From assembly GCF_002288225.1 (NCBI RefSeq), contig NZ_CP016777.1, positions 1,116,001 to 1,180,000 of the forward strand: a stretch of 64,000 nucleotides of DNA. The letters are read 5' to 3'. Shown here one piece after another: positions 3,781-58,145 of the stretch. Each line of letters begins with the position of its first letter. Position 1 is the stretch's first letter. The notes under the pieces were generated by a model. It made no database searches and had not been told where the DNA came from. It was given only the letters and a program-made list of their open reading frames with translations. This stretch comes from Candidatus Planktophila dulcis. GTDB lineage: Bacteria > Actinomycetota > Actinomycetes > Nanopelagicales > Nanopelagicaceae. The translations under genes were made by a program, and so were the position numbers.

Positions 3781-3834
3781 GACATCCCTTTACTTGTATG
3801 AAAATTGACTCTTCGCTTGACCTGCAAAATCATA

Positions 3835-3840
3835 TAGGAT
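3835..3840 (+). promoter_or_regulatory. Putative -10 (TAGGAT) for the aldo/keto reductase, leaderless spacing
   Basis: TAGGAT occupies exactly -12 to -7 relative to the ATG at 3847, as expected if transcription starts at the A of the ATG. The same bases contain AGGA, which could instead act as a ribosome site seven bases from the ATG. The -35 region is weak. Confidence 0.45.
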
Positions 3841-3846
3841 GAATTT

Positions 3847-8946: not shown

Positions 8947-8995
8947 ATTCTTAAGTGAGTAAGCTCATCGCAACTCTAGATATAAGGTGAAAACA

Positions 8996-13760: not shown

Positions 13761-13796
13761 GGTCGCCAAACTACCTTGTTTACTGCTGAGTTTCTA

Positions 13797-40362: not shown

Positions 40363-40368
40363 TAGAAT
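40363..40368 (+). promoter_or_regulatory. -10 element TAGAAT with leaderless spacing
   Basis: TAGAAT occupies -12 to -7 relative to the ATG at 40375, with no ribosome site between. This fits a transcript starting at the initiation codon. Confidence 0.55.
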
Positions 40369-40374
40369 CTCCTT

Positions 40375-40629
40375 ATGGTTCGCGCGCTCCTCATTCTCTT
40401 GCCTTTGGCACTTACCCTCTACACATTTGTGGACTGTGCGATGCGCGATGACTCGCAAATTAAGAAGATTCCTAAGTGGGGTTGGTTGCTAGCAATTCTC
40501 TTCTTGCAGCCCTTTGGTGGAATCGTTTATCTCTTCATCGGACGCAATCGTGGCCCTAAGGGTCCAAAACCTGGGAAGAAGCGCATTCTTCCTCCCGATG
40601 ACGATCCAGATTTCTTACGTAGTCTGTAA
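40375..40629 (+). CDS. PLDc_N-type small membrane protein
   Basis: 84 aa with two membrane segments (about residues 4-22 and 37-54). The motifs VDCAMRDDSQIKKIPKWGW and LQPFGGIVYLFIGR match the phospholipase D N-terminal (PLDc_N) domain, here without any catalytic domain. Such short proteins are frequent beside cytochrome c maturation and men genes in actinobacteria; the function is unknown. The C-terminal 15 bases overlap the oppositely oriented PQ-loop gene. Confidence 0.8.
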   Translation: MVRALLILLPLALTLYTFVDCAMRDDSQIKKIPKWGWLLAILFLQPFGGIVYLFIGRNRGPKGPKPGKKRILPPDDDPDFLRSL

Positions 40630-41208
40630 CTCTCTTCGGCGCTTACCAATCAGTTCCAGAACAATGACTGAGATGTTGAGTGAGACTGCGATGGAAGCAC
40701 TCAGAAGTATGAGTGAAACATCAGCAAGCAGAGCATAAACAAACCAGAGAGCAATACTGATCGAGCTCACACTCAGTCCACTGATAGATACTGCAGTGTC
40801 AGCACCAGCATGCAAGTTCTTATAAGACCTAACAATTTGAGGCGTTTGTGCAAAAACCACAAGAATCAGAATCGTAGAGACAACAGCACTGGGTAGATTG
40901 AGAATGAGCGCTGAGAGAGCTGATGCATATACCGATAGAAGCGCAATAGATTTCAGATTATTCTTCATGATTGCCATGATCACACTCGCATTAACGAGCG
41001 CTGCTCCTATATTTGTCAGAAGCACAGAAGGTGAGCTGATATCAAAACCATATGCACCCCAACAAGTAGAAGTTCCAAACAGGAGTAACCACGAGATCAG
41101 ACTTACTCCACGGCCATGACCAAGGCGACGAACACGCAGTGCTTGTGGAAGTCCAACGAACATTCCGAGGCCACCTGCAATAAAACCAACTACTTCTGCA
41201 GAAATCAT
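40615..41208 (-). CDS. Two-repeat PQ-loop / SWEET-like membrane protein
   Basis: 197 aa with about six or seven membrane helices. Two internally similar units are visible: GLPQALRVRRLGHGRGVSL near residue 19 and AQTPQIVRSYKNLHAGADT near residue 118, each with a PQ dipeptide followed by a short basic stretch and a helix with Ser/Trp/Tyr. This resembles a tandem duplication of bacterial SemiSWEET or other PQ-loop transporters. Possible substrates are sugars or amino acids. No partner gene is visible. Confidence 0.65.
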   Translation of the reverse strand: MISAEVVGFIAGGLGMFVGLPQALRVRRLGHGRGVSLISWLLLFGTSTCWGAYGFDISSPSVLLTNIGAALVNASVIMAIMKNNLKSIALLSVYASALSALILNLPSAVVSTILILVVFAQTPQIVRSYKNLHAGADTAVSISGLSVSSISIALWFVYALLADVSLILLSASIAVSLNISVIVLELIGKRRRELQTT

Positions 41209-41222
41209 CTAGTCAAGGCTTC

Positions 41223-42137
41223 TTACAAACCTGAGTAAGTATGTTTGCCGGATCCCCACACATTGACATAGACGTAGTTAAATAAGAATGTTGAACCTGC
41301 AAAGATGCAGAGCCATGCTGCGCGTCGACCACGCCAACCCACTGTCACGCGAGCATGGAGATAGGCCGCATAAGCAACCCAGGTAATAAATGCCCACGTC
41401 TCTTTTGGATCCCAACCCCAATAGCGTCCCCATGCACTCTCTGCCCAGATCGCACCAGCAATGACTGCAAAGGTCCAGAGTGGGAATACAAATGCAACGA
41501 GGCGATAAGAAAGTTGATCAAGGACTTCAAGAGATGGGACTCTCTGTAACCACACTGGGCGTGGACCACGTGCTTCTACTCGCTCAAGATATAGATAAGC
41601 ACCAGCTACTACGTTGGCGAGTAGGAAGACTCCGCCAGAAATAATCGCGGCTAAGACGTGAATGACTAACCACGTTGATTTCAGCGCAGGAACAAGTGGT
41701 GCGCTATTGCGATAGAGCAGAGTAATTGCGGTACCAAGTGTTAAGAGAACTGAGAGTGAGACAAAGAGCCCAAGCCAGCGAAGATCATATTTACGAAGGG
41801 CTGCAAGATAGGCGCCGGTAAATGCTAAAGCTCCCGTAATAGAGAACTCATACATATTTCCCCATGGGACATGTCCATTTGAAATTCCACGAGCCACGAT
41901 GCCTGCGAGAAGAAGAATGAAACCAAGAATCATCATTGCAGTTGCAATGCGTGCCGACTTCTCTGTTCGCTTGTAATCAAGAGTCTTCAGAAGAAGGTTT
42001 CCATCTGTTGAATCAGCAGCCTCAGGTGCTCGCACAGCAAAGGCAGTTTCAAAGGCGTGTGCGATAAAGGAGATAGTAAAGACAGCCATTGCGGAATACA
42101 CAGAGTAATTTGAGATGTAGGCCCACGTTGTCTGCAT
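41223..42137 (-). CDS. ccsB: Cytochrome c biogenesis protein CcsB (CcsA/ResC family)
   Basis: 304 aa with eight or so membrane segments. The haem-handling tryptophan-rich WWD-type motif is present as WGRYWGWDPKETWAF, and conserved histidines occur in the flanking helices (VIHVLAAI, YLHARVT). With ResB it forms the system II haem-delivery and ligation complex that attaches haem to apocytochrome c outside the membrane. One-base overlap with resB. Confidence 0.94.
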   Translation of the reverse strand: MQTTWAYISNYSVYSAMAVFTISFIAHAFETAFAVRAPEAADSTDGNLLLKTLDYKRTEKSARIATAMMILGFILLLAGIVARGISNGHVPWGNMYEFSITGALAFTGAYLAALRKYDLRWLGLFVSLSVLLTLGTAITLLYRNSAPLVPALKSTWLVIHVLAAIISGGVFLLANVVAGAYLYLERVEARGPRPVWLQRVPSLEVLDQLSYRLVAFVFPLWTFAVIAGAIWAESAWGRYWGWDPKETWAFITWVAYAAYLHARVTVGWRGRRAAWLCIFAGSTFLFNYVYVNVWGSGKHTYSGL

Positions 42138-43603
42138 TACTTCTCTCCCTTAATTGCGCTTACAAAATTCTCTATCTCAACATCAAGTCCTGGCGCACTG
42201 TTCTTTGCAAGTCCTGCAACTTCTACTCCGGCAGATATAGTGCGAACCCAGATTCGACGACGACGACCATAGAGTGAAGAAAGTAGACCTAGGATGGCAA
42301 GAATAGCGCCGATGAGCGCATAACTCTTTCCGGGATCATCGACGAACTGAAGGTTGACCCACGGAACAACTGTCTCGAGTGTGATGGAGCCCTCAGGATA
42401 GGTGAAGGTTTCACCTGGCTTTACTGAACCTAAACCGACTTTCTCTAACTGGCTTGTATCAATTCTGTACACGGATTGGGGAATGCCTGAATCAAGACCT
42501 AGATCGCCTTTCCAAATAGAGAAGAGAAGTTTGGGATCTAAGAGCTCAGGAAATATTGATACTGCGCCTTGATCACTGGTGCGCGCATTTGTTGGAACGA
42601 AGGAAGATACAAAGCCAATCTGTGGCTGTGCATCGGGGACTTTGATCGAACCAATAGAGCGGAGATTGCCATCCTGTGGCAAGAATGGAATAGGTCCCTG
42701 AAGAGCGACATTTCCTTCTGAATCTCTCACCGTGACAACTGGGCTATAACCATTTGCTTGCAAGTAGACGCGGGTATTGCCAAAGGTAAGGGGCTTATTA
42801 ACTTTTATCACTTTCTTATAGGTGCTGCCGTTATCAGTGATTGTGACCCATGCTGTGTAATCTTTTGGAGCATTGGTCACCGGATCGTATTCGCCCAGGA
42901 ATTTATCGAGCTTAATCTCAAATGTCGGAAGTGATTTTTCGCCTGTGAGTTTTCCAAATGAGACTGAGTCATAGGAAGTTGCCACGTTAACAAAACGCTC
43001 ACCCACGTTGATGATTGCTTCACCGCGCATTCCAAAGAGAGAGCCGAAGCTGACACCAACAAGAATCAAGATAAGTGAGAGGTGGAAGAGAAGATTTCCT
43101 GTCTCTCGCACGAAACCTTTCTCGGCAGAGATTGAATTGCCTTCGACGCGCACTCTGAATCTATTCTTCTTAAACCAGAGCGCTGCGCGATCTAGCGACT
43201 CAGCTCCACCTGCAAACTCCTGATGGTGCTCAAGCCTTGATAAATTCTTCGGTGTCACAGGCGGTTGAGCGCGCATCGCCTTGTAATGCTCAACGCTTCG
43301 AGGCAGAACACAACCGATGAGTGAGATGAAGAGCAAGATATAAATTGCACTAAACCACGGGGATCCATAAACATCAAAGAGTGAGAAGCGGTCATACCAT
43401 TTAGCTAAATCTGGATTTGTAGTGAATAACTCACGCACTGCAATCTGATTGGTAATACGTTGAGGAATCAACGAACCTGGAATTGCAGCAACGCCCATCA
43501 GCATCAGCAAGATCAGCGCCGTGCGCATACTTGTGAGCTGGCGCCATGCATAATGAATGAGGGCAATAAAGCCTAGCTCTGGTACTTCAATCTCTTTGCT
43601 CAT
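42137..43603 (-). CDS. resB: Cytochrome c biogenesis protein ResB
   Basis: 488 aa. Membrane segments occur near residues 25-45, 80-95, 175-195 and 445-465, with a large extracytoplasmic domain between the last two, the ResB/Ccs1 layout. Typical phrases are RTALILLMLMGVAAIPGSLIP and a pattern of FSLFDVYGSPWF. It works with CcsB in haem ligation. One-base overlaps with both ccdA and ccsB. Confidence 0.94.
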   Translation of the reverse strand: MSKEIEVPELGFIALIHYAWRQLTSMRTALILLMLMGVAAIPGSLIPQRITNQIAVRELFTTNPDLAKWYDRFSLFDVYGSPWFSAIYILLFISLIGCVLPRSVEHYKAMRAQPPVTPKNLSRLEHHQEFAGGAESLDRAALWFKKNRFRVRVEGNSISAEKGFVRETGNLLFHLSLILILVGVSFGSLFGMRGEAIINVGERFVNVATSYDSVSFGKLTGEKSLPTFEIKLDKFLGEYDPVTNAPKDYTAWVTITDNGSTYKKVIKVNKPLTFGNTRVYLQANGYSPVVTVRDSEGNVALQGPIPFLPQDGNLRSIGSIKVPDAQPQIGFVSSFVPTNARTSDQGAVSIFPELLDPKLLFSIWKGDLGLDSGIPQSVYRIDTSQLEKVGLGSVKPGETFTYPEGSITLETVVPWVNLQFVDDPGKSYALIGAILAILGLLSSLYGRRRRIWVRTISAGVEVAGLAKNSAPGLDVEIENFVSAIKGEK

Positions 43604-44328
43604 TAGATCACCGGTGCGAAATCTGTAATAAGGGAGCGCATCTCAATCATGAAATCTGTCCAAAGACCAGTTAATTGCAGAAGGCCAATAACAATAAGTA
43701 GGACTCCGCCCACCTTTGAAACTTTATTACCGCTCTTCACTAGTACTTTGCGCAGCTTCTCTGATTTATCTAGAAATACACCGGATGCGATAAATGGAAT
43801 TCCAAGTCCAATGCAGTAACCGAATGACAACACAGCTCCGCGCACTGCACTCGATTCTTGGAATGCCAGTGCCTGCACACTCGCCAGCGCTGGACCAATA
43901 CAAGGCGTCCATCCAACTCCAAAGAGGAATCCGAGCAGTGGTGCTCCAATGAGTCCACCATTGGTTGCAATCTTTGGCTTCAGTGTTGGCATCATGGGAA
44001 ATGCTCCGAGGAAGATCACTCCCATAAGAATTGTGAGAACTCCGAGAACTCGAGTAATCGACTCTTCATTGGTGGCAATTCGTGCACCCAGTTCGCCAAA
44101 GAGAACTCCATAGGAGATGAATAGGGCGCTAAAACCAAGGACAAAGAGCACAGAACCTAGGAAGAGTTTTCCGCGGGAGTTAGAAAATCCAGCAGCAAAT
44201 GAGAGATAGCCGGGCACAAGTGGAAGCACACATGGAGAGATGAAGGAGATGAGTCCTGCAAGCACAGCAATAGGAAAAGCAGTCAGTAAGAAACCATCCA
44301 TGATGTGGTTGACAACAAATTCTCTCAT
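43603..44328 (-). CDS. ccdA: Cytochrome c biogenesis protein CcdA (thiol reductant carrier)
   Basis: 241 aa, six membrane segments. The redox-active cysteines are Cys33 (FISPCVLPLVPGYLS) and Cys143 (GVGWTPCIGP), one in each half. It carries electrons from cytoplasmic thioredoxin to the extracellular thioredoxin-like ResA encoded directly upstream. The start at 44328 overlaps the resA stop by four bases (ATGA); Met10 is an alternative. Confidence 0.94.
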   Translation of the reverse strand: MREFVVNHIMDGFLLTAFPIAVLAGLISFISPCVLPLVPGYLSFAAGFSNSRGKLFLGSVLFVLGFSALFISYGVLFGELGARIATNEESITRVLGVLTILMGVIFLGAFPMMPTLKPKIATNGGLIGAPLLGFLFGVGWTPCIGPALASVQALAFQESSAVRGAVLSFGYCIGLGIPFIASGVFLDKSEKLRKVLVKSGNKVSKVGGVLLIVIGLLQLTGLWTDFMIEMRSLITDFAPVI

Positions 44329-44861
44329 TCTGCTCTCACCTCTTCAATGAGGGCAGTAAGGGATGCAACTGTGACCACACCTGAAACGCGTGAGGCAACT
44401 TTGCCGTTTCGATCAATAATCACAGTTGTAGGAATTGCATTGGCAGGAAGAGATTTACTAAATCCAATCAGGATTGAATCATCAATCAGCGTTGGGTATG
44501 GGGTTCCGCGCTTTCGCGTGAAAGCCTCAGCATTAACAGGGTTATCGCGTGTAAGGATTCCAATGAATTGAACATCTGAGAAGGTGCGAGAGAGCGCTGC
44601 CAGAGTTGGCTCTTCTGCTCTGCATGGTGAACACCATGATGCCCACACATTAACTACCGCAATTTTTCCTGGAGTGAATGTGAAGTTCTCTCCACTGAGG
44701 GTCATACCTGAAATTGCAGGAGCAGCAATTCTGCTGCCCGCTTTCATCTTTGTGATTGCCCCACTACCTGCAATAAAACTCTCTTGAGCTTGTGATGCTC
44801 CACCATTGCTGCAGCCAGTCAGAAGCATGACCGATGCGAGAGCGATGGCAAGTTTTTTCAT
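44325..44861 (-). CDS. Thioredoxin-like lipoprotein ResA/TlpA
   Basis: 178 aa. A lipoprotein signal ends in LLTGC (Cys17), so the protein is anchored outside the membrane. The thioredoxin active site is Cys77-x2-Cys80 in WASWCSPCRAEEPTL. It keeps the haem-binding cysteines of apocytochrome c reduced, fed by CcdA. It starts one base after the histidine phosphatase stop. Confidence 0.93.
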   Translation of the reverse strand: MKKLAIALASVMLLTGCSNGGASQAQESFIAGSGAITKMKAGSRIAAPAISGMTLSGENFTFTPGKIAVVNVWASWCSPCRAEEPTLAALSRTFSDVQFIGILTRDNPVNAEAFTRKRGTPYPTLIDDSILIGFSKSLPANAIPTTVIIDRNGKVASRVSGVVTVASLTALIEEVRAE

Positions 44862-44862
44862 A

Positions 44863-45483
44863 CTATTTTGGAGGAAGAAGATGCTTAGCAGGTTCGGAAT
44901 ATGAAGTACCAGAGATCATTTCTTCATCATCGAAGTGAACGCTAGTTACTGATGCCAATGTGCACTCACGTTTGCGTGGATCATGCAACATGCTGCGTCC
45001 CTCAATGGCACTTCTTAAAATCCAAATAGGTAGCTGATGTGAAACAACGATTGCATCTTTACCTTTAGCCGCCTTATTGGCATCAAAGATTGCAGCAAGC
45101 ATTCGAGAGATTTGCTCTTCGTAGGGTTCTCCCCATGATGGCTTCCACGGGTTATAAAGATGGCGCCATGCAGATGGATGCTTGAGCACTCCACTACCTA
45201 ATTCAAATGATTTTCCTTCAAAGATATTTGCAGCTTCAATAAGTCGATCATCGGTCTTGATATCAATTGAGTGCGCACGAGATATAGGTGCTGCTGTCTC
45301 TTGCGCTCTCTGTAGTGGTGAGACGTGAAGAGCGCCAAGATCAATTGACTTAGACCACTCACCAATTGTTTGTGCCATCTCTTGTCCGCGCTGTGAAAGT
45401 CTCCATCCAGGCTGACGTCCGTAGAGAATCTTGTTGGGATTCTCTACTTCGCCATGGCGAATGACGTGGACAGTTGAACTCAT
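44863..45483 (-). CDS. Histidine phosphatase family protein (phosphoglycerate mutase-like)
   Basis: 206 aa from the ATG at 45483. A longer frame reaches 45540 but would overlap the divergent HAD gene and lacks support. The catalytic VIRHGEVENP has the phosphorylated His10, and the second His is in IVVSHQLPIW. It is a broad-specificity phosphatase rather than a clear glycolytic mutase. A similar gene precedes resA in mycobacteria, so the association with cytochrome c maturation is conserved although unexplained. A leaderless promoter lies directly upstream. Confidence 0.88.
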   Translation of the reverse strand: MSSTVHVIRHGEVENPNKILYGRQPGWRLSQRGQEMAQTIGEWSKSIDLGALHVSPLQRAQETAAPISRAHSIDIKTDDRLIEAANIFEGKSFELGSGVLKHPSAWRHLYNPWKPSWGEPYEEQISRMLAAIFDANKAAKGKDAIVVSHQLPIWILRSAIEGRSMLHDPRKRECTLASVTSVHFDDEEMISGTSYSEPAKHLLPPK

Positions 45484-45489
45484 GGAGTA

Positions 45490-45517
45490 AGCATAAAGCG
45501 TCGAAAAACCGCCCCAA
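45490..45517 (-). promoter_or_regulatory. Leaderless promoter of the histidine phosphatase/ccs operon
   Basis: On the minus strand TTGGGG (45517-45512), 16 bases, TATGCT (45495-45490), then six bases to the ATG at 45483. The -10 is exactly at -12 to -7, and no ribosome site is present. Confidence 0.6.
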
Positions 45518-45521
45518 TCGC

Positions 45522-45527
45522 TAAGGT
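45522..45527 (+). promoter_or_regulatory. TAAGGT: -10 with leaderless spacing, or ribosome site, of the HAD gene
   Basis: TAAGGT lies at -12 to -7 of the ATG at 45534. The AAGG within it could also pair with 16S rRNA, so the two readings cannot be separated by eye. Confidence 0.4.
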
Positions 45528-45533
45528 AGTGAC

Positions 45534-46295
45534 ATGGCACTCACCTCGAAACGAGCAGCCTTCTTCGATGTAGATAACACCCTTGTTCGAGGGTCCACGC
45601 TCTACTTCCTTGGAAGAGGCATGTACCAGCGTGGCTTCTTCACCAACGCTGATATCTCTCGCTTTGTTGTCGCCAATATTCGATTCCGCATGACGGGGAC
45701 TGAGAAGAAGGAAGTCATCGAGAAATTCCAAAATGCAGCCACAGATTTTATTGGTGGCCATGCAGTTGATGACATCAAAAAAATTGGTGAAGAAATTTAT
45801 GATGAATTCGTCTCGCCAAAGCTCTGGCAAGGAACATTTGAAATAGCCAAGTCACACTTAGATAAAGGTGAAGAAGTCTGGCTAGTGACAGCTGCTCCAC
45901 AAGATATGGCAAACATCATCGCTCAGCGATTAGGGCTAACTGGTGCCCTTGGTAGTAAGGCTCATATTGAAAATGGAATCTATACCGGCACGTTAGATGG
46001 CAAGCTCTTGCACGGAGCTGAGAAGGCGATAGCAATTCAAGGTTTAGCCAAGGAACATGGTTTTGATCTAGAAGATTGTTATTCATACTCTGATAGCCAT
46101 AATGACATTCCATTGCTGCAAGCAGTGGGGCATCCTTGTGCAATTAATCCAGATGCCGTTCTGCGCATTCGCGCACTTGCCGAAGGATGGCCCATCCATG
46201 ATTTCCGCAGAGCACGTTTTCTCAATCGATTGCTTGGTCCAGCAGTAAGTCGACTTGCTGCACTTGCAACCTTGCTTACTCCTCGCAAGCGCTAG
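45534..46295 (+). CDS. HAD-IB family hydrolase (SerB-like)
   Basis: 253 aa. The HAD nucleophile motif is AFFDVDNTLVRG (Asp12, Asp14), motif II is the TAAPQ stretch, and motif IV is SYSDSHNDIPLLQAVGHP. It belongs to the IB subfamily with phosphoserine phosphatase-like proteins, with a helical cap between motifs I and II. The substrate is unknown. A C-terminal basic/hydrophobic tail (RLAALATLLTPRKR) may associate with membrane. It is divergent from the histidine phosphatase with 50 bases between start codons. Confidence 0.9.
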   Translation: MALTSKRAAFFDVDNTLVRGSTLYFLGRGMYQRGFFTNADISRFVVANIRFRMTGTEKKEVIEKFQNAATDFIGGHAVDDIKKIGEEIYDEFVSPKLWQGTFEIAKSHLDKGEEVWLVTAAPQDMANIIAQRLGLTGALGSKAHIENGIYTGTLDGKLLHGAEKAIAIQGLAKEHGFDLEDCYSYSDSHNDIPLLQAVGHPCAINPDAVLRIRALAEGWPIHDFRRARFLNRLLGPAVSRLAALATLLTPRKR

Positions 46296-46357
46296 ATCTG
46301 CCTACTCTGCACCTCAATTAGCGCACACGCCTCACTTACGGCTATCGTTGGCAGGTT

Positions 46358-48559
46358 ATGGAAATTCGCTCTTACGCTGACTATCTACGCGCACTCGATG
46401 ATGCCGCTTTAATTTCCATGTTCAACCACCGCCCTGATCTTGTAACGCCGGTGCCGCCAGATATGGCAAGCCTTGCTGTGCGCGCATCCTCTGCCCCCAG
46501 CCTTGCTCGCGCAGTAGATGCGCTCAATAAGTGGCAACTCCAAGTTCTAGAAGTCTGCGCAATTCTTCCTGAACCATTCTCTGAAAAAGATGTCACTGCT
46601 CTGACAGAGAAATCAGCTCTCTTTGTTATTCCTGGGCTTATTGAGCGGGGCCTTCTCTATACGGATAAAGATGGACTTCGCACCCCCACAACTCTCAAAG
46701 AAGTTCTTGGCAATGAGATTGCAGGTCTTGGCCCTGCATCAATGTCGAAGTTGAAGTTAAAGAAGTTAGATGAAGTCCCTGCTCCTTCTAAGAAAGTTCT
46801 CGATGCAATGGTCTGGGGACCACCTCGTGGAGCGATTGCAGATATTAAGAAGCCAAGTGTGGGTGTTCAGTGGCTGCTTGAAGAAGGATTCCTTATTCCA
46901 TTTAACCAACAGACTGTTGTTCTTCCACGTGAGGTAGCAATCTACTTACGTGGGAATACAGTCCATCGCGAACTAGAAACATCTCAGCCATCGGTTACTG
47001 GCAGCAAGCGCGATATGCGCAATGTGCAGTTAGCAGCGATTGCAAATATCACCACCTTCCTGCGATGGACTGAAGAAGTACTTAACTTCTGGGCGCAAGA
47101 GCCAGCTACAGCACTTCGCTCTGGGGGCTTGGGTGTTCGTGATCTAAAAGAGCTTTCGCTGCACCTAGGTGTCGATGAATCCTGCACAGCATTTGTCGCT
47201 GAAGTTGCATACCTATCAGGGCTTTTGACAATTGATCCCGATGACAAGATTTTGCCCACACATCAATTTGATATCTGGTTAACGCAGAACGCATCTGTGA
47301 AGTGGCAGTTACTGGCATCAGCGTGGCTGAGCACCTCTCGCGTATCTGGCCTCGTTGGAAAAGAAGGCAGTAAAAATGTTGCACCGCTTGGGCCGGAGTT
47401 AGATCGCTCATCAGCGACAACAACCCGTCGCCTCACACTCACTCTTTTGCAAGAAAATTCTCAAATAGCAGTAGATATTGATTCACTCTTTGCAGCAGCC
47501 ACCTGGCTTGCACCGGCAAAGCGTGCAGGTGGATTACAGAAGGATTACATTCTCTGGGCTATGCGCGAAGCTGAATGGCTAGGCATAACAGGACAAGGCG
47601 TTTTATCCTCATATGGCGCTGACTTCCTGACAGGTGGCGATAGCACATCAGTTGATACCGATCTTCCTAAGGCCGTTGACCACATTCTTATTCAGAGCGA
47701 TAACACTGCAATTGCTCCAGGACCGTTAGAACATGAAGTAGCACAAGAGCTTGCACTCATCGCAGATGTCGAATCACGCGGTGGTGCCACAGTATTTAGA
47801 TTCTCTGAAGGATCAATCCGTCGAGGACTTGACCATGGTCGCACTGGCGAAGAGATTGCAAAGTTTCTTGCAAAGACTTCCAAGACCCCAATGCCACAGC
47901 CTCTTGAATATCTCATTGCAGATGTTGCAAAGAAACATGGAAAGTTGCGCGTTGGAAATACCGCATCCTTTATTCGCTGTGAAGATTCGGCGCTGATCGC
48001 CCAGATTCTTGGAGATAAACGTCTTGATGTTCTAGGCCTTCGAAAGATTGCACCTGAAGTTCTTATCTGTGGGCACGATGCAACAGAGGCAATGAATATT
48101 CTGCGCAGTTGTGGTTACTTGCCAGCTGCTGAGGATTCACGTGGACTTCTCTTAAGTGGTCCACGTATTCAACGAGCACAGTCAAAGGCGCGACCACCAC
48201 GCATCATCGGTGAATACGAGCGACCAGATGAGATTCAGATCGAAGGTGCGCTACGCGCGCTGCGTACTGGTGAGAAATCCAGCCGCAAGCAGAGCACGAT
48301 GCGTAACATTGCAACTGAAGCTCTCGGTTCATTGCCACGATCGACAGCAAATGAAACTCTTGAACTCTTAAGTGATTACTTACAGAATCAACCAACTAAG
48401 TCGCTATCTATTGGTTATGCCGATAACAATGGTCTTGTCTCACATCGAATCATCGATCCTTTGAAATTATCTGCAGGATCACTGGTTGCGCGCGACCATG
48501 CCACCGGTGAAGTGCAGACCTTCAGAATCGCGCGTATTACGGGGGTTGCTGCCTTATGA
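46358..48559 (+). CDS. Helicase-associated domain protein (XPB partner)
   Basis: 733 aa. It begins with IRSYADYLRALDDAALISMF, the conserved N-terminus of the large actinobacterial proteins annotated as helicase-associated or XPB/Ssl2-like N-terminal domain proteins (Helicase_C_3). No Walker A or DEAD box is visible, so it is not itself a helicase. It is regularly encoded beside the XPB helicase and may be its partner in DNA repair or transcription-coupled remodelling. Here an M20 peptidase gene lies between the two. A TATCGT (46343-46348) nine bases upstream is a possible -10. ATGA overlap with the next gene. Confidence 0.85.
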   Translation: MEIRSYADYLRALDDAALISMFNHRPDLVTPVPPDMASLAVRASSAPSLARAVDALNKWQLQVLEVCAILPEPFSEKDVTALTEKSALFVIPGLIERGLLYTDKDGLRTPTTLKEVLGNEIAGLGPASMSKLKLKKLDEVPAPSKKVLDAMVWGPPRGAIADIKKPSVGVQWLLEEGFLIPFNQQTVVLPREVAIYLRGNTVHRELETSQPSVTGSKRDMRNVQLAAIANITTFLRWTEEVLNFWAQEPATALRSGGLGVRDLKELSLHLGVDESCTAFVAEVAYLSGLLTIDPDDKILPTHQFDIWLTQNASVKWQLLASAWLSTSRVSGLVGKEGSKNVAPLGPELDRSSATTTRRLTLTLLQENSQIAVDIDSLFAAATWLAPAKRAGGLQKDYILWAMREAEWLGITGQGVLSSYGADFLTGGDSTSVDTDLPKAVDHILIQSDNTAIAPGPLEHEVAQELALIADVESRGGATVFRFSEGSIRRGLDHGRTGEEIAKFLAKTSKTPMPQPLEYLIADVAKKHGKLRVGNTASFIRCEDSALIAQILGDKRLDVLGLRKIAPEVLICGHDATEAMNILRSCGYLPAAEDSRGLLLSGPRIQRAQSKARPPRIIGEYERPDEIQIEGALRALRTGEKSSRKQSTMRNIATEALGSLPRSTANETLELLSDYLQNQPTKSLSIGYADNNGLVSHRIIDPLKLSAGSLVARDHATGEVQTFRIARITGVAAL

Positions 48560-51314: not shown

Positions 51315-51522
51315 AGCGTTCTGGATCAATCCGATAAAAGTCATGGTGCTCGCCATTGATGTGAATCACAGGAACTTCATTTCCATATAGCTTTTCTAGT
51401 TCTGGATTGCCGTCGATATAGATAATCTCAATCTCAAATGCGAGTTCTTCGCGCATGCCCTCTAAGGTTTTCACAGCATCTTCACACAGATGACAGCCTT
51501 GGCGAGAGTAAACGGTAACCAT
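51277..51522 (-). CDS. Glutaredoxin-like thioredoxin-fold protein (DUF836 type)
   Basis: 81 aa. The redox pair is Cys10-x2-Cys13 in RQGCHLCEDA near the N-terminus, followed by a cis-Pro region (EVPVIHI), a compact glutaredoxin fold. It probably reduces small or protein disulfides. The start codon at 51522 is 35 bases from the divergent start at 51558. A GAGAAT at -12 to -7 hints at leaderless transcription. Confidence 0.85.
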   Translation of the reverse strand: MVTVYSRQGCHLCEDAVKTLEGMREELAFEIEIIYIDGNPELEKLYGNEVPVIHINGEHHDFYRIDPERFRTSLEKHRRHQ

Positions 51523-51549
51523 GACTGCATTCTCGCATCCTGATAGCGT
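51521..51549 (+). promoter_or_regulatory. Promoter of the secreted metalloprotease-like gene (ATGACT-N17-TAGCGT)
   Basis: ATGACT (51521-51526), 17 bases, TAGCGT (51544-51549), eight bases before the ATG at 51558. The -35 overlaps the start codon of the divergent glutaredoxin gene, and no ribosome site is seen. Confidence 0.5.
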
Positions 51550-51557
51550 TACCCGCT

Positions 51558-53933
51558 ATGAGAGGCCAGATAAGACGCAGTGGACCTTTCTTCCTCGTAT
51601 TAGGCCTGATTGCCTCACTTCTTCTACCAACGCAATCTGTTGCACTCTCCAATTTCAAAGTAGCTCCATCAACTGTCTGGGGTTACACATACGCAGGTAA
51701 GGCAACTGGAATAACGCAAACTCGTCCACCTAAAGTTGCTTATCTTGAGCAGAAATCAAAATTTGTAGTTAATTTCAAGAACTTTCCTGAATGGGCGAAG
51801 AAGGATTTCCAAGCAGCGGTAGATATCTGGGCAGCGAATTTTTCATCAGATGCTCCCATCACGATTGATGCATCATGGGGACGATCAGCTTCTATCGGAG
51901 TTCTCGGTAGCGCACGTCCTGGAAATTACTATTCTGGCTTTGATGGGGCACCTGATCAGAGTCTCTGGTATCCATCAGCTCTTGCTAATGCTTTGGCCGG
52001 AAAAGATTTAGATCCTCAAACTCCAGAGATGGTTATTCAAGTCAACTCTGTTGCTAACTGGAATACACGTAACGATGGAGCTCCGCGCGCAAATGAGTAT
52101 GACCTTCAATCTGTCTTTCTCCACGAAATGGGACACGGCTTAGGATTCTTATCTACTGATTCTTATGATCAATTCTTTGGTTATGGAACTATCGAACAAC
52201 CAACTCCTTATAACGCTTACGCCCAACTTCCCGATGGTCGCCGCCTTTCAGATCTTCCATCTCCCTCCATCGAACTTGGTAAGGCGCTGACATCAACACT
52301 TGTCTGGGCTGGTCCACTGGGAATGGCAGCTAATGGTGGACAGAAACCAATTCTCTACACGCCGGCGCGCTATGAAGAAGGCTCATCTGTTAGCCACCTT
52401 GATGAAGCTACCTACTCAAATCTAGGTGCGAATTCGATCATGACTCCCAATCTTGATGCAGGTGAAATTTTCAGAGAGCCAGGTTCTCTTCTACTAGCAA
52501 TGATGGAAGATCTACGTCGTAAACCACCTGTGGGTATTGCAGTTGGTGTGCCACAAGTAGTGCGTAATGCTGCTGCCATCATCGCCGATAGCTCAGCCAT
52601 CATCACCTTTGACCCTCCTGCTAATGCGCGAACAGCACAGATCACTAGTTACTCAGTACGTAATCTCAAGACTGATCAAGTAAAGAGCTCAACCGAATCT
52701 CCGATTATCGTTACAGGGCTGAAGAACGGCACCAGTTATAGCTTTAGCATCGTTGCATCCAATACCAATGGAACTTCCGATGCTGTCATTACAGCCCCCA
52801 TGACTCCACAAGTTGGCTGGAAGAGATTTGTTATCGATGAGAAGGCTGATGCAAAGCATGTCACCAGCACGCTCTTTAACGGTAAGCCACTTATTGCTTA
52901 TACCGATTCAAAGAGCGGAATTTTAAAGATTGCAATCTGGGATGGAAAATCGTGGAAGAAGTCGACCGTAGATGGAGCGGGAGGAACTGCAGGACGCATC
53001 AAGACCGCTATTACAAGTCCTATCTCACTCTGCGTGAATGGTTCTGGCCTTGCTCAAACTCTTCACATCTTCTACTCCGAAAGTGGAGATCGCGATCTGC
53101 GCTATGCAACCTATGACGGCAAGAAGTTTTTCTATGAAATCGTCGATGGCAACGGTGTGCAGGTAAATGATTACAAGGACCCTGTTCGTGTTCGCACAGG
53201 TAGCGATGTCAGCATCTCTAACGCATGTGTTGCAACATCAGGTGGAATCCAAGTCTTTTATCGCGATGAGAGCCAAGGAATTCTCTTAGGTGCTACAAAG
53301 GCTAAGGGAACCTCTAAATGGGTATACGAACTAGTCGATGGTGATCGTAAAACCGATGGTCGCAGCACAGGCGATGTCGCCTTCCATCTCAAAGCGCTCT
53401 TTGATGGCAAGAAGACTTATGTTGTCTATGACTCAGTTCTAACAATCAGCCAGAAGAAGCAACCCACCTCCGGTGAGGTGCGCGTTGCATCGCGCACAAC
53501 ACTGTCTAGTGATGCCTGGAGTTATTTCAACCTCGACACATCAGGCAGTGCAACGCCTATGACTGGCTTTGATGTCTCGATTGCAAAGACTCTCAATGGA
53601 ATTCAAGCCACCTGGCTTATCTCATCTCCTGCAACTGCGCCTAACCCAAATCGAATTCGCTGGAGTCCGGTACAAAACCCACCAACACAAGGTGTTGCAA
53701 CGAGTGAGCTCTATGGCGCTCCAGGCAAATACCTCAACACTGATGGCTCATTTATTGCATATAACTGCTTCCAGCGCCTCTGTGTTCTCGATAGCGCAAG
53801 AGCGATACCAACAATTAAATTGGTTTCTACCGAACAAAACCCTGATGGTGTTGCCTCCGCCTGGGTTACTGTCGATCGCGTGAAGTACTTAGTGGCCGGT
53901 TATAAAGGCCAACTTTCAATGTTTCGTCCTTAA
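51558..53933 (+). CDS. Secreted zinc-metalloprotease-like protein with Fn3 domain
   Basis: 791 aa. A signal peptide (hydrophobic about 11-28, cleavage near TQSVA-LS) directs secretion. Residues 40-320 form a peptidase-like domain with HEMGHGLGF (189-197), the zinc-binding HExxH, and HLDEATY plus SIMTPNLDAGE further on, as in secreted HExxH proteins of environmental bacteria; the third zinc ligand is not obvious. Residues ~330-415 look like a fibronectin type III domain. Residues ~420-791 contain repeated beta-strand units (for example KPLIAYTDSKSGILKIAIWD), possibly a propeller. Overlaps the next gene tail to tail by four bases. Confidence 0.8.
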   Translation: MRGQIRRSGPFFLVLGLIASLLLPTQSVALSNFKVAPSTVWGYTYAGKATGITQTRPPKVAYLEQKSKFVVNFKNFPEWAKKDFQAAVDIWAANFSSDAPITIDASWGRSASIGVLGSARPGNYYSGFDGAPDQSLWYPSALANALAGKDLDPQTPEMVIQVNSVANWNTRNDGAPRANEYDLQSVFLHEMGHGLGFLSTDSYDQFFGYGTIEQPTPYNAYAQLPDGRRLSDLPSPSIELGKALTSTLVWAGPLGMAANGGQKPILYTPARYEEGSSVSHLDEATYSNLGANSIMTPNLDAGEIFREPGSLLLAMMEDLRRKPPVGIAVGVPQVVRNAAAIIADSSAIITFDPPANARTAQITSYSVRNLKTDQVKSSTESPIIVTGLKNGTSYSFSIVASNTNGTSDAVITAPMTPQVGWKRFVIDEKADAKHVTSTLFNGKPLIAYTDSKSGILKIAIWDGKSWKKSTVDGAGGTAGRIKTAITSPISLCVNGSGLAQTLHIFYSESGDRDLRYATYDGKKFFYEIVDGNGVQVNDYKDPVRVRTGSDVSISNACVATSGGIQVFYRDESQGILLGATKAKGTSKWVYELVDGDRKTDGRSTGDVAFHLKALFDGKKTYVVYDSVLTISQKKQPTSGEVRVASRTTLSSDAWSYFNLDTSGSATPMTGFDVSIAKTLNGIQATWLISSPATAPNPNRIRWSPVQNPPTQGVATSELYGAPGKYLNTDGSFIAYNCFQRLCVLDSARAIPTIKLVSTEQNPDGVASAWVTVDRVKYLVAGYKGQLSMFRP

Positions 53934-55111
53934 GGTAATTTAAAGAGGGAAACGCTTTGGGCACTCGTCTTTGCTAAGCCGACAAGTCCTAACTCCTTTG
54001 AATATGCCAGTGAAATTGGCTCTGTTATTTCAGATGAGCCATATGCCCCAGCAATCACTCCTTTAACATCGAGTGCGAGTAGCAATACTGATGCACTCGT
54101 TGGTTTCCAGCCAATCACACCTGCAACTGCAGAGCTGGAGGAGATAGCACCGTATGTGGTGTTTCCAGCAGTTAGCACTGTTGAAGTTCCAAGAGATGGA
54201 ACTCGCATGGTCCATGTTGGTGCAAGTGCCATAGTGAATTTTGTAAAGGCGGTTTCAATAATTTTTCCACTCTTCACAAATCCAGTCAGTGCAAGAGTTG
54301 AATCAGCTGCAAGCCATGCTCGATTTGCTTTGGGGGCTGAGCTTCGAACAACAGATGCAATAGCTCCTGTCTTTGACACTCGAATCAACACACCATCGCG
54401 CACTCCAGCTAACTTCTTACCTGCCAAAGTTTCTGCACTGCTTCCAAAGACTGATACAGAACCATCGCTGTGGCGCACGACTGCACCTAGCTGAGTCTTT
54501 GATGTTCCAATCGATATGACTTTGCCAAATACTCCATTAGCCGTAGCGCTGATGAGGAAAGGCTTATCAAGTAATTGCCCGACAATAGAAACTCCACTTG
54601 CGTTGACCGAGATTGCATTGATCAGAGCTGGTGCGCTTTGGGAGAGCGTGTAAGTGCCTAAGAGATCACCCAGTGGAGAGAGCTTCCAGAGAGTTAACTG
54701 ATTCATATCACCGCGAAGTTTTGTAACAGGTTCTGCAATGACTCCATCAGGATTTTCTGCCTGGATGGGAGCTGTCGCACTCTCAACAGAAGTCAGCACA
54801 GATGATGCACCTGCCAGCCACACATTGCCGAGTGGATCAACTGCAGAAGTAAGAGCTATCTCATCCACGCCTGAATCAATGGTCTTCTGCCACAGCTGTG
54901 CGCCGCTGATATCCATCCCTGTAAGGAGAATATTTGAGTTCAGCCCTTCAGTATTGCTCACAGTAACAATTGTCTTTCCTGTTACAACCATCGCTTCTGC
55001 GTTCACTGTTGCAATAATGGTCAACTTCTTTATGGCAACAGATTTAGGTGCCGCAACTGCTGGTGTTATTCCAACGAGCAGTAGTGCGAGAAATAATGCA
55101 GTGCGCTTCAT
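53930..55111 (-). CDS. Secreted protein of unknown function, beta-rich
   Basis: 393 aa. A Sec signal peptide (MKRTALFLALLLVGITPAVA) is followed by a mature protein rich in short beta-strand units with Gly-Asn/Asp turns (for example ALTSAVDPLGNVWLAGASS), which suggests a beta-propeller of the quinoprotein/WD-like type. No catalytic motif is recognised. It is coupled to proC by TAATG, an odd pairing, and is convergent with the secreted metalloprotease-like gene. Both may act at the cell surface, but that is only positional. Confidence 0.7.
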   Translation of the reverse strand: MKRTALFLALLLVGITPAVAAPKSVAIKKLTIIATVNAEAMVVTGKTIVTVSNTEGLNSNILLTGMDISGAQLWQKTIDSGVDEIALTSAVDPLGNVWLAGASSVLTSVESATAPIQAENPDGVIAEPVTKLRGDMNQLTLWKLSPLGDLLGTYTLSQSAPALINAISVNASGVSIVGQLLDKPFLISATANGVFGKVISIGTSKTQLGAVVRHSDGSVSVFGSSAETLAGKKLAGVRDGVLIRVSKTGAIASVVRSSAPKANRAWLAADSTLALTGFVKSGKIIETAFTKFTMALAPTWTMRVPSLGTSTVLTAGNTTYGAISSSSAVAGVIGWKPTSASVLLLALDVKGVIAGAYGSSEITEPISLAYSKELGLVGLAKTSAQSVSLFKLP

Positions 55112-55911
55112 TATTGAGCGAGTTCTCCAGCGCGACGAGCAGATGCTGCCATCGCATCGGCAACTATCTTAGAAATTCCAGCTTCATCAAAGACAGCGAT
55201 TGCCTCAGCCGTTGCACCTTTAAGACTTGTGACTTTTTCACGTAGTCGTGTTGGTGTGTCCCCTGATTCATCAAGGAGAGCTGCCGCGCCCACAATAGTT
55301 TGAATGCTCAGCGTTGTTGCATCATCACGTGATAGTCCCATTGCAACTGCTCCATCGATCATCGCCTCCACAAATCTAAAGAAGTAGGCAGGCCCTGATC
55401 CACTTGTTCCTGTGAGGGCATTCTGTAAATCTTCAGGAATCTCAATCGCCTTACCTGTTGAGGCAAGTAGTGTTTGAACAAATTTCTTTTGTGCATCCGT
55501 CACTCCTGCGCTAAGTGAATATCCAGCCATTCCCTTGCCAACCAGAGTCGGAGTATTGGGCATAACGCGAGCTATGAATTGATGGTTACCAAGGCCCGCT
55601 GAGATGCCTGCAATGGTCTTTCCAGCAAGCAGTGAGATGACGAGGGCATCACTACGCAGATGTGGCGCTATCTCAGGCATAAGCTCGCTCAGGCCTTGAG
55701 GTTTGATACCTAGTAGGACTACATCACTACTGCGTAGAGCCTCACCCAGAGTCTTAACACCAATTGAATATTTGGTAACTAATTCATCGCCTCTTTCAGG
55801 TCGACGAACTACAGCAGTTATTGATGATGCAGGAGCTCCAGATCGAATAAGGGCGGCGATAAATGCTTCACCCATTACTCCGGCACCAACGACTGCAATC
55901 TGATTAGCCAT
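55111..55911 (-). CDS. proC: Pyrroline-5-carboxylate reductase ProC
   Basis: 266 aa, full length. The N-terminal Rossmann motif VGAGVMGEAF binds NAD(P)H, and the C-terminal signature GTSGSGPAYFF and the following helix (ALLDESGDTPTRLREKVTS) are characteristic. It catalyses the last step of proline synthesis. The start is ATG at 55911; no ribosome site is present, but TACTCT occupies -12 to -7, which implies a leaderless message. Confidence 0.95.
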   Translation of the reverse strand: MANQIAVVGAGVMGEAFIAALIRSGAPASSITAVVRRPERGDELVTKYSIGVKTLGEALRSSDVVLLGIKPQGLSELMPEIAPHLRSDALVISLLAGKTIAGISAGLGNHQFIARVMPNTPTLVGKGMAGYSLSAGVTDAQKKFVQTLLASTGKAIEIPEDLQNALTGTSGSGPAYFFRFVEAMIDGAVAMGLSRDDATTLSIQTIVGAAALLDESGDTPTRLREKVTSLKGATAEAIAVFDEAGISKIVADAMAASARRAGELAQ

Positions 55912-55917
55912 GGCGAA

Positions 55918-55923
55918 AGAGTA
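55918..55923 (-). promoter_or_regulatory. -10 element TACTCT of proC, leaderless spacing
   Basis: TACTCT on the minus strand is followed by six bases and the proC ATG. It lies in a 30-base divergent gap. Confidence 0.6.
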
Positions 55924-55927
55924 CGCG

Positions 55928-55933
55928 TAGGCT
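55928..55933 (+). promoter_or_regulatory. -10 element TAGGCT for the divergent cysteine-rich gene
   Basis: TAGGCT ends eight bases before the ATG at 55942. A start of transcription two or three bases before the ATG would give an almost leaderless message. Confidence 0.45.
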
Positions 55934-55941
55934 CTGCGACT

Positions 55942-56751
55942 ATGTCAGAGATAAAGCCAGGTTTTGCACGCGACTGGGTCGAATTCGCAGATCCCAACGA
56001 TGAAGAAGAAATCTTCAAATGCGACCTCACCTGGTTGACCTCCTTCTGGACCTGCATCTATGGCGATGGCTGCCAGGGTGTTTTCAAAGACCGTCCTAAT
56101 GATGGGTGCTGCACAGAAGGTGCGATGTATTCAGATGAAGATGATGAAGAGCGCGTTCGTAAGGCAGCAGAATTCCTGACTCCAGATATGTGGCAGTTCT
56201 ATGAAGCAGCTCGCCCAAAGAAGCCAGGTGGAAAACTTCGTATTACAGATCTCGATGAAGATAATGATCGCAAGACTCGCACTGTCAATAATGCGTGCAT
56301 CTTCCTTAACCGTAAAGGCCATGAAGCTCCAGGCTTTACTGGTGACTTCGGTTGCGTACTACACCACCTTGCACAGAAGAGAAATATTCACTTTGTAGAT
56401 ACAAAGCCTGATGTATGTTGGCAATTACCACTTCGCAGAAGTTTTGAAACTCGCGAAGTTGGCGAGCGCGAATATTCAGTCACGGTCATTGGTGAATATG
56501 AACGCCTTGGTTGGGGCGATGGCGGAGAAGATTTCGATTGGTACTGCACAAGTAATACCGATGCTCACGTCGGTAGTGAACCTGTGTATATCTCCAACAA
56601 GGCTGAGCTTTCACAGTTGATGGGTAAGGATGCATATGCGATCCTGGCTGAGCACTGTGATCGCCGCGTTCAGGGTATTCGCGATGCTCAGGCTCGCTCA
56701 CTGCCGCTCTTTATTATTCAACACCCAGCCACTCTCGCTGCCGGCAAGTAG
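55942..56751 (+). CDS. Cysteine-rich conserved hypothetical protein
   Basis: 269 aa, soluble, not recognised beyond a general likeness to conserved actinobacterial hypotheticals. It has ten cysteines. Five are clustered early (27, 38, 44, 56, 57, in CIYGDGCQGVF and NDGCCTEG), others are in NNACIFL, FGCVLHH, DVCWQLP, WYCTSN and EHCDRR. The pattern suggests a bound zinc or iron-sulfur centre, as in other cysteine-rich cytoplasmic proteins, but this is inference. It is acidic near residues 18-24 and 64-70. It lies between proC and radA. Confidence 0.6.
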   Translation: MSEIKPGFARDWVEFADPNDEEEIFKCDLTWLTSFWTCIYGDGCQGVFKDRPNDGCCTEGAMYSDEDDEERVRKAAEFLTPDMWQFYEAARPKKPGGKLRITDLDEDNDRKTRTVNNACIFLNRKGHEAPGFTGDFGCVLHHLAQKRNIHFVDTKPDVCWQLPLRRSFETREVGEREYSVTVIGEYERLGWGDGGEDFDWYCTSNTDAHVGSEPVYISNKAELSQLMGKDAYAILAEHCDRRVQGIRDAQARSLPLFIIQHPATLAAGK

Positions 56752-56765
56752 TCAGCGCTCTCCTC

Positions 56766-56771
56766 TAACCT
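56766..56771 (+). promoter_or_regulatory. -10 element TAACCT of radA, leaderless spacing
   Basis: TAACCT is at -12 to -7 of the ATG at 56778, with no purine-rich ribosome site between. The -35 region is weak. Confidence 0.55.
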
Positions 56772-56777
56772 ACGACT

Positions 56778-58145
56778 ATGGCTAAGGTTGAGAAGGAACC
56801 ATTTCGTTGCTCTGAATGTGGATGGGCATCGCAGAAATGGGTTGGTCGCTGCGGTGAGTGCCAAGCATGGGGCTCTGTTGAAGAGTTAGCCGCTCCTAAG
56901 AAACTCTCACTCGTTGCAGGCACTGTCACCTCAAAGGCCACACCTATCGGCGATGTTGATCTCTCATCTGCTCGTGCACGTGCCACAGGTGTATCTGAAC
57001 TCGATCGCGTATTAGGTGGCGGGCTAGTACCAGGGGCAGCAATCCTTCTTGCTGGCGAACCTGGAGTTGGTAAATCAACTCTTCTCTTATCAGTTGCTGC
57101 GCAAACTGCCGCTAAAGGAATTCCTGCCCTCTATATCTCAGGTGAAGAATCTGCCTCCCAAGTTCGACTTCGTGCCGAACGTATCAATGCAGTTGACCCC
57201 AAGTTATTTCTTGCATCTGAAACAGATTTAGGCGCAGTCATTGCCCATATCGATGCAGTTAAACCTGAACTTCTCATCATCGACTCCGTGCAGACAATTG
57301 GTTCATCTACGGCAGATGGCTCACCTGGCGGTGTCACACAGGTGCGTGAAGTTGCTGGTGCACTCATTCGCATCTGTAAAGATCGCGATATCACTCTGCT
57401 TCTGGTTGGCCATGTCACTAAAGATGGATCTATTGCAGGCCCAAGACTTCTTGAACATATCGTCGATGTTGTTCTGCAATTCGAAGGTGAGCGTCACTCA
57501 CGCCTTCGCCTTATCCGCGCCATAAAGAATCGTTTTGGTGCAAGTGATGAAGTGGGGTGCTTTGACTTAAGTGATACTGGTATTGAAAGTGTTCTCGACC
57601 CCACAGGGCTCTTCACATCGCGCCATGCAGAACCTGTGCCGGGCACATGCGTCACAGTCACTCTCGAAGGTCGCAGGCCACTGCTTGCAGAAATCCAGGC
57701 ACTTGTGAGCGCAGGGCGAGAAAATGATTTCGGAAATGCTCGTCGCGTCACAAGCGGCCTCGATTCAGCCCGCACATCAATGACACTTGCAGTCCTTGAA
57801 CTTCGTGCACATATTCGCGTCGGTGGTCGTGATGTCTATGCAGCAACTGTGGGCGGAATGAAGATGTCTGAACCTGCTGCAGATTTAGCTCTTGCACTGG
57901 CTGTGGCATCTGCTGCAAAAGGTTTAGCACTTCCAGCAGATCTTGTTGCTATCGGTGAAGTCGGCCTTGCTGGGGAGATTCGCAAAGTAAGCGGTGTTTC
58001 TCGTCGCCTTGCTGAGGCTTACCGCCTTGGATTTAAGCGCGCACTTGTTCCAGCAGGTTCTGATGTGAAGATCGATGGAATGGAAGTCGTTGAAGTCTCT
58101 CGCCTTGATCAAGCGCTGCAGCAAGTAAAAATCACTGGCGAATAA
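56778..58145 (+). CDS. radA: DNA repair protein RadA
   Basis: 455 aa, standard length. It has an N-terminal zinc finger (Cys11/14/25/28), a RecA-like core with Walker A GEPGVGKST, the RadA-specific IKNRFGASDEVGCF motif, and a C-terminal Lon-protease-like domain (GGMKMSEPAADLALALAV). It is a DnaB-like helicase acting in recombination intermediate processing. It overlaps mutY by one base. The disA gene that commonly follows radA in actinobacteria is absent here. Confidence 0.97.
   Translation: MAKVEKEPFRCSECGWASQKWVGRCGECQAWGSVEELAAPKKLSLVAGTVTSKATPIGDVDLSSARARATGVSELDRVLGGGLVPGAAILLAGEPGVGKSTLLLSVAAQTAAKGIPALYISGEESASQVRLRAERINAVDPKLFLASETDLGAVIAHIDAVKPELLIIDSVQTIGSSTADGSPGGVTQVREVAGALIRICKDRDITLLLVGHVTKDGSIAGPRLLEHIVDVVLQFEGERHSRLRLIRAIKNRFGASDEVGCFDLSDTGIESVLDPTGLFTSRHAEPVPGTCVTVTLEGRRPLLAEIQALVSAGRENDFGNARRVTSGLDSARTSMTLAVLELRAHIRVGGRDVYAATVGGMKMSEPAADLALALAVASAAKGLALPADLVAIGEVGLAGEIRKVSGVSRRLAEAYRLGFKRALVPAGSDVKIDGMEVVEVSRLDQALQQVKITGE

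Follow-up and report, generated by a model that had tools for sequence, protein, structure and literature searches.

How transcription and translation start at genes that carry a TAnnnT hexamer at a fixed distance before the start codon is the question raised by a stretch of the genome of Candidatus Planktophila dulcis, a member of the Nanopelagicaceae (acI lineage). The stretch analysed, here called the window, comprises 64,000 nucleotides (positions 1,116,001-1,180,000 of the single-contig genome of 1,348,019 bp) and has a GC content of 48%. An initial annotation, made from the sequence alone, had described TAnnnT at exactly -12 to -7 of six start codons (3847, 40375, 45534 and 56778 on the plus strand, 45483 and 55911 on the minus strand), and the hexamer was verified in the sequence at all six. 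The statement that most of these genes lack any ribosome site was fair: a four-base run resembling a Shine-Dalgarno (SD) sequence is present at two of the six, AGGA (3847) and AAGG (45534), and both runs fall within the hexamer; 40375 has AAAGGA at -20 to -15, more distant than usual for an SD sequence. We are highly confident that the starts with this motif belong to ordinary actinobacterial leaderless genes, in which a -10 element would set the start of transcription on the start codon. The fixed geometry, its conservation, the signatures of SD sequence, TTG and purine at -1 and the differences between gene classes were all observed directly.

Genes were called from coding potential, start-codon type and overlap; upstream motifs were never used. 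The sample of the own genome covered 524 kb (39% of the genome, 515 called genes, of which 446 lie in the first 464 kb), and for the family sample eight genera, with GC contents of 42-53%, contributed 2,064 kb and 1,895 called genes. A motif count against a shuffled control, as the initial annotation had suggested, revealed enrichment at -12: the motif was present in 67 of the 515 genes of the own genome, compared to a mean of 7.5 (sd 2.6, maximum 16) in 200 dinucleotide-preserving shuffles, and at -13 in 31 genes, compared to a mean of 7.2 (maximum 14). The first 464 kb alone, with 446 genes, had 61 cases at -12 and 31 at -13, while the other offsets had a mean of 4.4 and a maximum of 10; the divergent, and thus first, genes of this part had it at -12 in 34 of 126 cases and at -13 in 11, with 1.4 per other offset. 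Throughout the family, 238 of the 1,895 genes carried the motif at -12, 84 at -13, 32 at -14 and 13 at -11, with ~20 at offsets -30 to -15. The counts at -12 by genus were 67, 36, 50, 32, 16, 19, 6 and 12, compared to 0.4 to 4.9 per background offset; the pattern was weakest in genus g7, where 74 genes had 6 cases at -12 and 1 at -13. The description "exactly -12" is therefore correct for the six named starts but not as a rule, since -13 is also used.

Neither internal codons nor a distant genome gave this pattern. Among 8,531 internal in-frame ATG codons no peak was found at -12 (23; range from 11 to 96 at offsets -20 to -6); their counts rise and fall with a three-base codon rhythm, to which -13 belongs with 66, below -10 (89) and -16 (96). 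The 46 annotated starts of E. coli K-12 had the motif at -12 in no case and at -13 in one. Start-context bias as the cause was rejected by the shuffles and the internal ATGs. Besides, an alternative in-frame ATG or GTG had the motif at -12 in 40 and at -13 in 26 of 1,514 non-motif genes, compared to 4-12 at other offsets; therefore, errors in start calling conceal some motif genes.

If +1 were the start codon, purines at -1 should be scarce and TTG avoided. Indeed, TTG was the start codon of only 2 of 322 motif genes, the others having ATG or GTG, compared to 105 of 1,573 other genes (p=4.9e-7), and a purine at -1 was found in 75 of 322 and 829 of 1,573 genes, respectively (p=7.5e-23). An SD match of at least 5 bases was present in 11 of 256 motif genes and in 341 of 1,282 others. 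A search for a -35 signal over the 30 bases upstream of the box gave at most 0.08 bit at any position (n=238), an extended TGn, found in 13 of 322 motif genes, gave no signal either, and the middle of the box was nearly uninformative in the sampled genomes. The 16S tail with the anti-SD sequence GGATCACCTCCTTT is present once in the genome and, therefore, SD-led initiation is also expected.

Among relatives, the box is widely conserved. At the aligned start of 45534 all 78 loci had it, 76 of them at -12 and the other 2 at -13 (two of the 80, L068 and L115, were left out because their contigs end at the gene start). The divergent start beside it, separated by 50 bp between both start codons in the window and by an intergenic gap of 49-88 bp among the loci, had TAnnnT in 77 of 78 loci, at -12 (53) or at -13 (24), if scored with a permissive pattern; the locus without it (L084) has only 68 bp of upstream sequence. 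For the other four genes (3847, 40375, 55911 and 56778; Table 1), any in-frame start within 45 nt was allowed, and L224-L234, with at most 38% identity, were taken as paralogues and left out. In proC (55911, minus strand) the position of the start codon on the protein alignment ranges from -27 to +6 nt, and the box shifts along with it. The N-termini of the proC products (55111-55911; L175-L204) differ by up to ~11 codons in length, and the distance between start and promoter is constant.

In the mechanism that we propose, the housekeeping sigma factor would recognise the TAnnnT -10 element without a visible requirement for a -35 element, and RNA polymerase would begin the RNA 6 or 7 bases past the box, on the first base (A or G) of the start codon. 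The mRNA would thus start with AUG or GUG and have neither a 5' untranslated region nor an SD site, and the ribosome, by precedent the 70S form, would bind it directly. Upstream SD sites would instead serve the core high-output genes and many of the genes within operons.

The alternative that survives best keeps the box as a promoter but places the 5' end of the RNA 1-5 nt off the start codon, particularly in the -13 set. The existence of two offsets, -12 (238) and -13 (84), is in its favour, but the base at -1 of the -13 set (C 0.57, T 0.29, A 0.10, G 0.05), being mostly C, would be a poor +1 and is a typical -1, and TTG is avoided; we regard this alternative as improbable. Much less credible still is a reading of TAnnnT at -12 as a signal for translation, or as a sequence bias around start codons, and not as a promoter. 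Its position is set relative to the start codon and a -35 signal is absent, as such a signal would have it, but TAnnnT is the -10 consensus reported under mapped transcription starts of M. tuberculosis (PMC3898074), the motif is most frequent at divergent first genes, TTG and purines at -1 are avoided, internal ATGs have no peak at -12 and the 16S tail carries a normal anti-SD sequence. That a weak motif was spotted by eye in a TA-rich window, where it is present at -12/-13 in only 7 of 60 called genes, is refuted by 67 genes compared to 7.5 in shuffles, by the family-wide peak and by the conservation in orthologues.

Some points weigh against leaderless initiation at these starts. The +1 position of the transcripts is deduced from the sequence, and the caller placed the start exactly in 28 of 46 annotated E. 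coli genes (the stop in 42 of 46), which makes the motif fractions rough. The genes of the family come from related genomes and are not independent, and ~20 motif genes per offset are expected by chance in this set. The SD rate of motif genes (11/256) is near the chance rate by any TAnnnT (0.035); active SD avoidance was therefore dropped as an idea, and the low rate shows absence of SD sequences, not active avoidance. Finally, the box is missing in 6 of 19 orthologues of the aldo/keto reductase (3847), 3 of 30 of proC, 2 of 30 of 40375, 9 of 30 of cysS and 3 of 30 of L012:12932. Five of the six box-less orthologues of 3847 (L211, L216, L217, L218 and L222) have an SD-like run AGGAG, AGAGG or GGAGG, and the initiation mode seems to have switched in these orthologues. 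With these points taken into account, we still consider leaderless initiation from a -10 element the very probable explanation.

Table 1 Predicted leaderless genes and -10 elements in the window
Feature	Position	Strand	Remark
-10 element TAGGAT	3835..3840	+	of aldo/keto reductase gene 3847-4824; at -12/-13 in 13/19 family orthologues
Leaderless gene (predicted), aldo/keto reductase (PF00248)	3847..4824	+	
TAAGGT at -13 of called start 8996, ambiguous	8983..8988	+	
Candidate TAGTTT at -13 of called start 13760	13768..13773	-	start given by the caller only
-10 element TAGAAT	40363..40368	+	of gene 40375-40629; kept in 28/30 orthologues, in L255 only at TTG
Leaderless gene (predicted), 84-aa protein with PLDc_N (PF13396)	40375..40629	+	
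Leaderless gene (predicted), histidine phosphatase family (PF00300)	44863..45483	-	
-10 element TATGCT	45490..45495	-	of gene 45483
-10 element TAAGGT	45522..45527	+	of gene 45534
Leaderless gene (predicted), HAD hydrolase (PF12710)	45534..46295	+	
Leaderless gene (predicted), pyrroline-5-carboxylate reductase (PF14748, PF03807), proC	55111..55911	-	
-10 element TACTCT	55918..55923	-	of proC gene 55911; kept in 27/30 orthologues
-10 element TAACCT	56766..56771	+	of gene 56778; 30/30 orthologues, 28 at -12, 2 at -13
Leaderless gene (predicted), RadA/Sms-like ATPase (PF06745, PF13541, zinc ribbon)	56778..58145	+	

The box before 8996 is ambiguous: AAGGTG also resembles an SD sequence, and the gene could start at an upstream GTG (8987). 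Gene 45534 was missed in the count of the window because the caller put its start at 45621. At the minus-strand promoter of 45483 (45483-45534), a longer block around CGCTTTATGCTTA is conserved in many relatives, which exceeds the needs of a -10 box and is perhaps an operator. Upstream of the aldo/keto reductase (3810-3847; orthologues L208-L215), several genera share a block resembling CAAAAATCCTATACGAT, and this suggests a regulator site overlapping the promoter. The name RadA for the product of 56778 is our reading of its domains. Only weak matches to this protein (best E 1e-7 to 1e-4) were found in G031, G036, G040, G049 (genus g7) and G021, while the other 76 of 81 genomes have it, complete or in fragments, at E 1e-104 or better.

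The initial annotation had further proposed that the chromosome uses two start modes, and both leaderless and SD-led starts are indeed supported in this genome. Among 220 first genes, defined as divergent or at least 60 bp from a co-directional neighbour, 52 had the box, 42 had an SD match of at least 5 and 126 had neither; where a co-directional neighbour was closer than 15 bp (197 genes), the numbers were 20, 54 and 123. The motif was found in 46 of 130 divergent but only 50 of 371 co-directional genes, and in 12 genomes 44 of 134 co-directional motif starts, chance matches included, were at most 14 bp from the preceding gene. Hence, of the proposal that leaderless starts serve the first genes of housekeeping units, the enrichment at first genes stood, but the housekeeping part did not: many core genes have SD-led starts, most leaderless first genes have metabolic functions, and boxes occur within operons as well.

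This distribution was seen in Pfam scans of 30 of the 52 leaderless and 30 of the 42 SD-led first genes, the latter chosen from the 40 of 42 that encode at least 80 aa. According to our own sorting, 12 of the 30 SD-led genes encode core machinery (DnaK, enolase, FtsZ, a class I tRNA synthetase, PNPase, S15, IF-2, ClpP, trigger factor, RpoA, GyrB and a Clp ATPase), compared to 2 of the 30 leaderless genes (release factor and ClpX), the others being mostly metabolic enzymes, transport components and proteins of unknown function. That high-output genes are led was borne out by two ribosomal-protein/rpoB clusters, anchored by L2 and L10 and with the remaining gene identities assumed from gene order: none of the 31 genes had a box and 20 had an SD match of at least 5, but the set is small and mostly operon-internal, so that few boxes are expected anyway. 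With the reference genes left out, leaderless genes had less ribosomal-type codon bias than SD-led ones (p=1.8e-6; p=4.8e-6 when first genes alone were compared) and did not differ from those with neither signal (p=0.31). Transporter genes had also been described as often led, which agrees with two solute-binding proteins of the window (7878 and, on the minus strand, 14648), but other transport genes, those of ABC ATPases, EamA and Zip, are leaderless. The dichotomy is right in outline and is better described as leaderless starts for many modestly expressed metabolic genes and led starts for core high-output genes.

Inside operons, the box can coincide with the end of the preceding gene. If the gap to a preceding neighbour on the same strand is 9 or 10 bp, the TAA or TAG stop codon of that neighbour sits at -12 or -13, and a T at the sixth place, counted from the first base of the stop, was found in 25 of 45 pairs with gaps of 9-10 bp compared to 66 of 367 at other gaps of 3-60 bp (p=1.8e-7, for pairs from related genomes that are not independent). 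Gaps of 9 bp (27 pairs) and 10 bp (19) outnumbered those of each length from 5 to 8 bp (11-12) and from 11 to 14 bp (12-18). A surplus of 9-15 bp gaps and a deficit of 5-8 bp gaps has been reported for prokaryotes generally (530 genomes; PMC2784483) and, therefore, the gap excess alone is weak proof; the evidence is the T at the sixth base, whose excess is not accounted for by the general gap surplus. In the own genome, such fusions with gaps of 9 or 10 bp are present at L003:18229, L006:17395, L007:15101, L009:3663, L019:15557 and others. The box of cysS (L003:18229) persists in 21 of 30 orthologues but the fusion not in all of them: in the close relatives L286 and L287 the upstream frame stops earlier, so there is no fusion, and in a relative of another genus (L275, G027) it is present again. 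The promoter therefore seems older than the fusion, which suggests that promoters may arise first and upstream reading frames later end within them.

Divergent genes can also share parts of their boxes. Of 241 divergent pairs 33 had a box on both sides, with 21.8 expected if the sides were independent. Five of these 33 pairs have start codons separated by 22-23 bp and boxes that overlap in a single TA step; this class is small and was noticed post hoc. In 1 of 33 the boxes overlap almost fully. At L006:8959-8980 and L012:12910-12931 the divergent start codons are 22 bp apart with one TA step common to both boxes, and these intergenic regions look like a single two-way promoter. The box of the L012 plus gene is kept in 27 of 30 orthologues though the distance to the partner varies. 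A regular spacing of divergent -10 elements (separations -2, 4-5 and 12) became blurred with more pairs, which added 1, 7, 13 and 18, and was rejected except for the shared-TA class. Whether a preceding TAA or TAG really serves as the first half of the next -10 box, and whether divergent gaps of 22-23 bp likewise hold two promoters sharing a TA, we judge to be evenly balanced. If so, an internal promoter would be gained with nearly no extra DNA wherever the gap is exactly 9 or 10 bp, and a functional stop-codon/-10 fusion would show small genomes packing promoters into coding signals.

The architecture itself is already known, having been predicted in Actinobacteria in 2011 and mapped in mycobacteria in 2013-2015; the fusion of stop codon and box and the divergent starts with a shared TA are possibly new details. 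Within a limited literature collection, no paper on leaderless genes with Nanopelagicales or Planktophila was found. The present results extend this actinobacterial initiation mode to the freshwater acI, Nanopelagicaceae lineage, and the distance of the box offers, for genomes of this sort, a simple rule by which start codons and N-termini can be corrected.

Zheng et al. (2011; PMC3160421) predicted TA-led, that is leaderless, genes in Actinobacteria with TANNNT ~12 bp before the start codon; from RefSeq genomes of 2010 they reported a mean of 19.2% of genes across 86 actinobacterial genomes and changes of the initiation mode between related genomes. The genes described here resemble these in the position of TAnnnT and in the mode change between relatives. 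The middle of the box is nearly uninformative here at 42-53% GC, which the account in PMC3160421 gives for high-GC but not for medium-GC groups.

In M. tuberculosis, Cortes et al. (2013; PMC3898074) described TANNNT under mapped starts with no -35 element, and Shell et al. (2015; PMC4633059) reported for mycobacteria that a 5'-terminal ATG or GTG is both required and sufficient, citing also that cytosine is preferred at -1. Shared with the leaderless set of Mycobacterium, as these sources present it, are TANNNT, the lack of a -35 element, the use of ATG/GTG and not TTG, the C at -1, ribosomal proteins outside the leaderless set and some leaderless tRNA synthetase genes (here cysS). The mycobacterial starts were measured, whereas the starts here were derived from sequence. 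Stop codons that form part of a box, and divergent gaps that are very short, are features seen here in these small genomes.

Middlemiss (2023; PMC10268837) described bidirectional promoters that arise by -10 symmetry with a usual spacing of 18 bp, and some divergent starts found here likewise have overlapping -10 elements. Here ~18 bp is not the commonest divergent spacing among the 33 two-box pairs, a small number with starts taken from start codons. Unlike in the promoters described there, the commonest overlap here is the TA step only (5/33) and not a near-full one (1/33), and both RNAs would be leaderless mRNAs.

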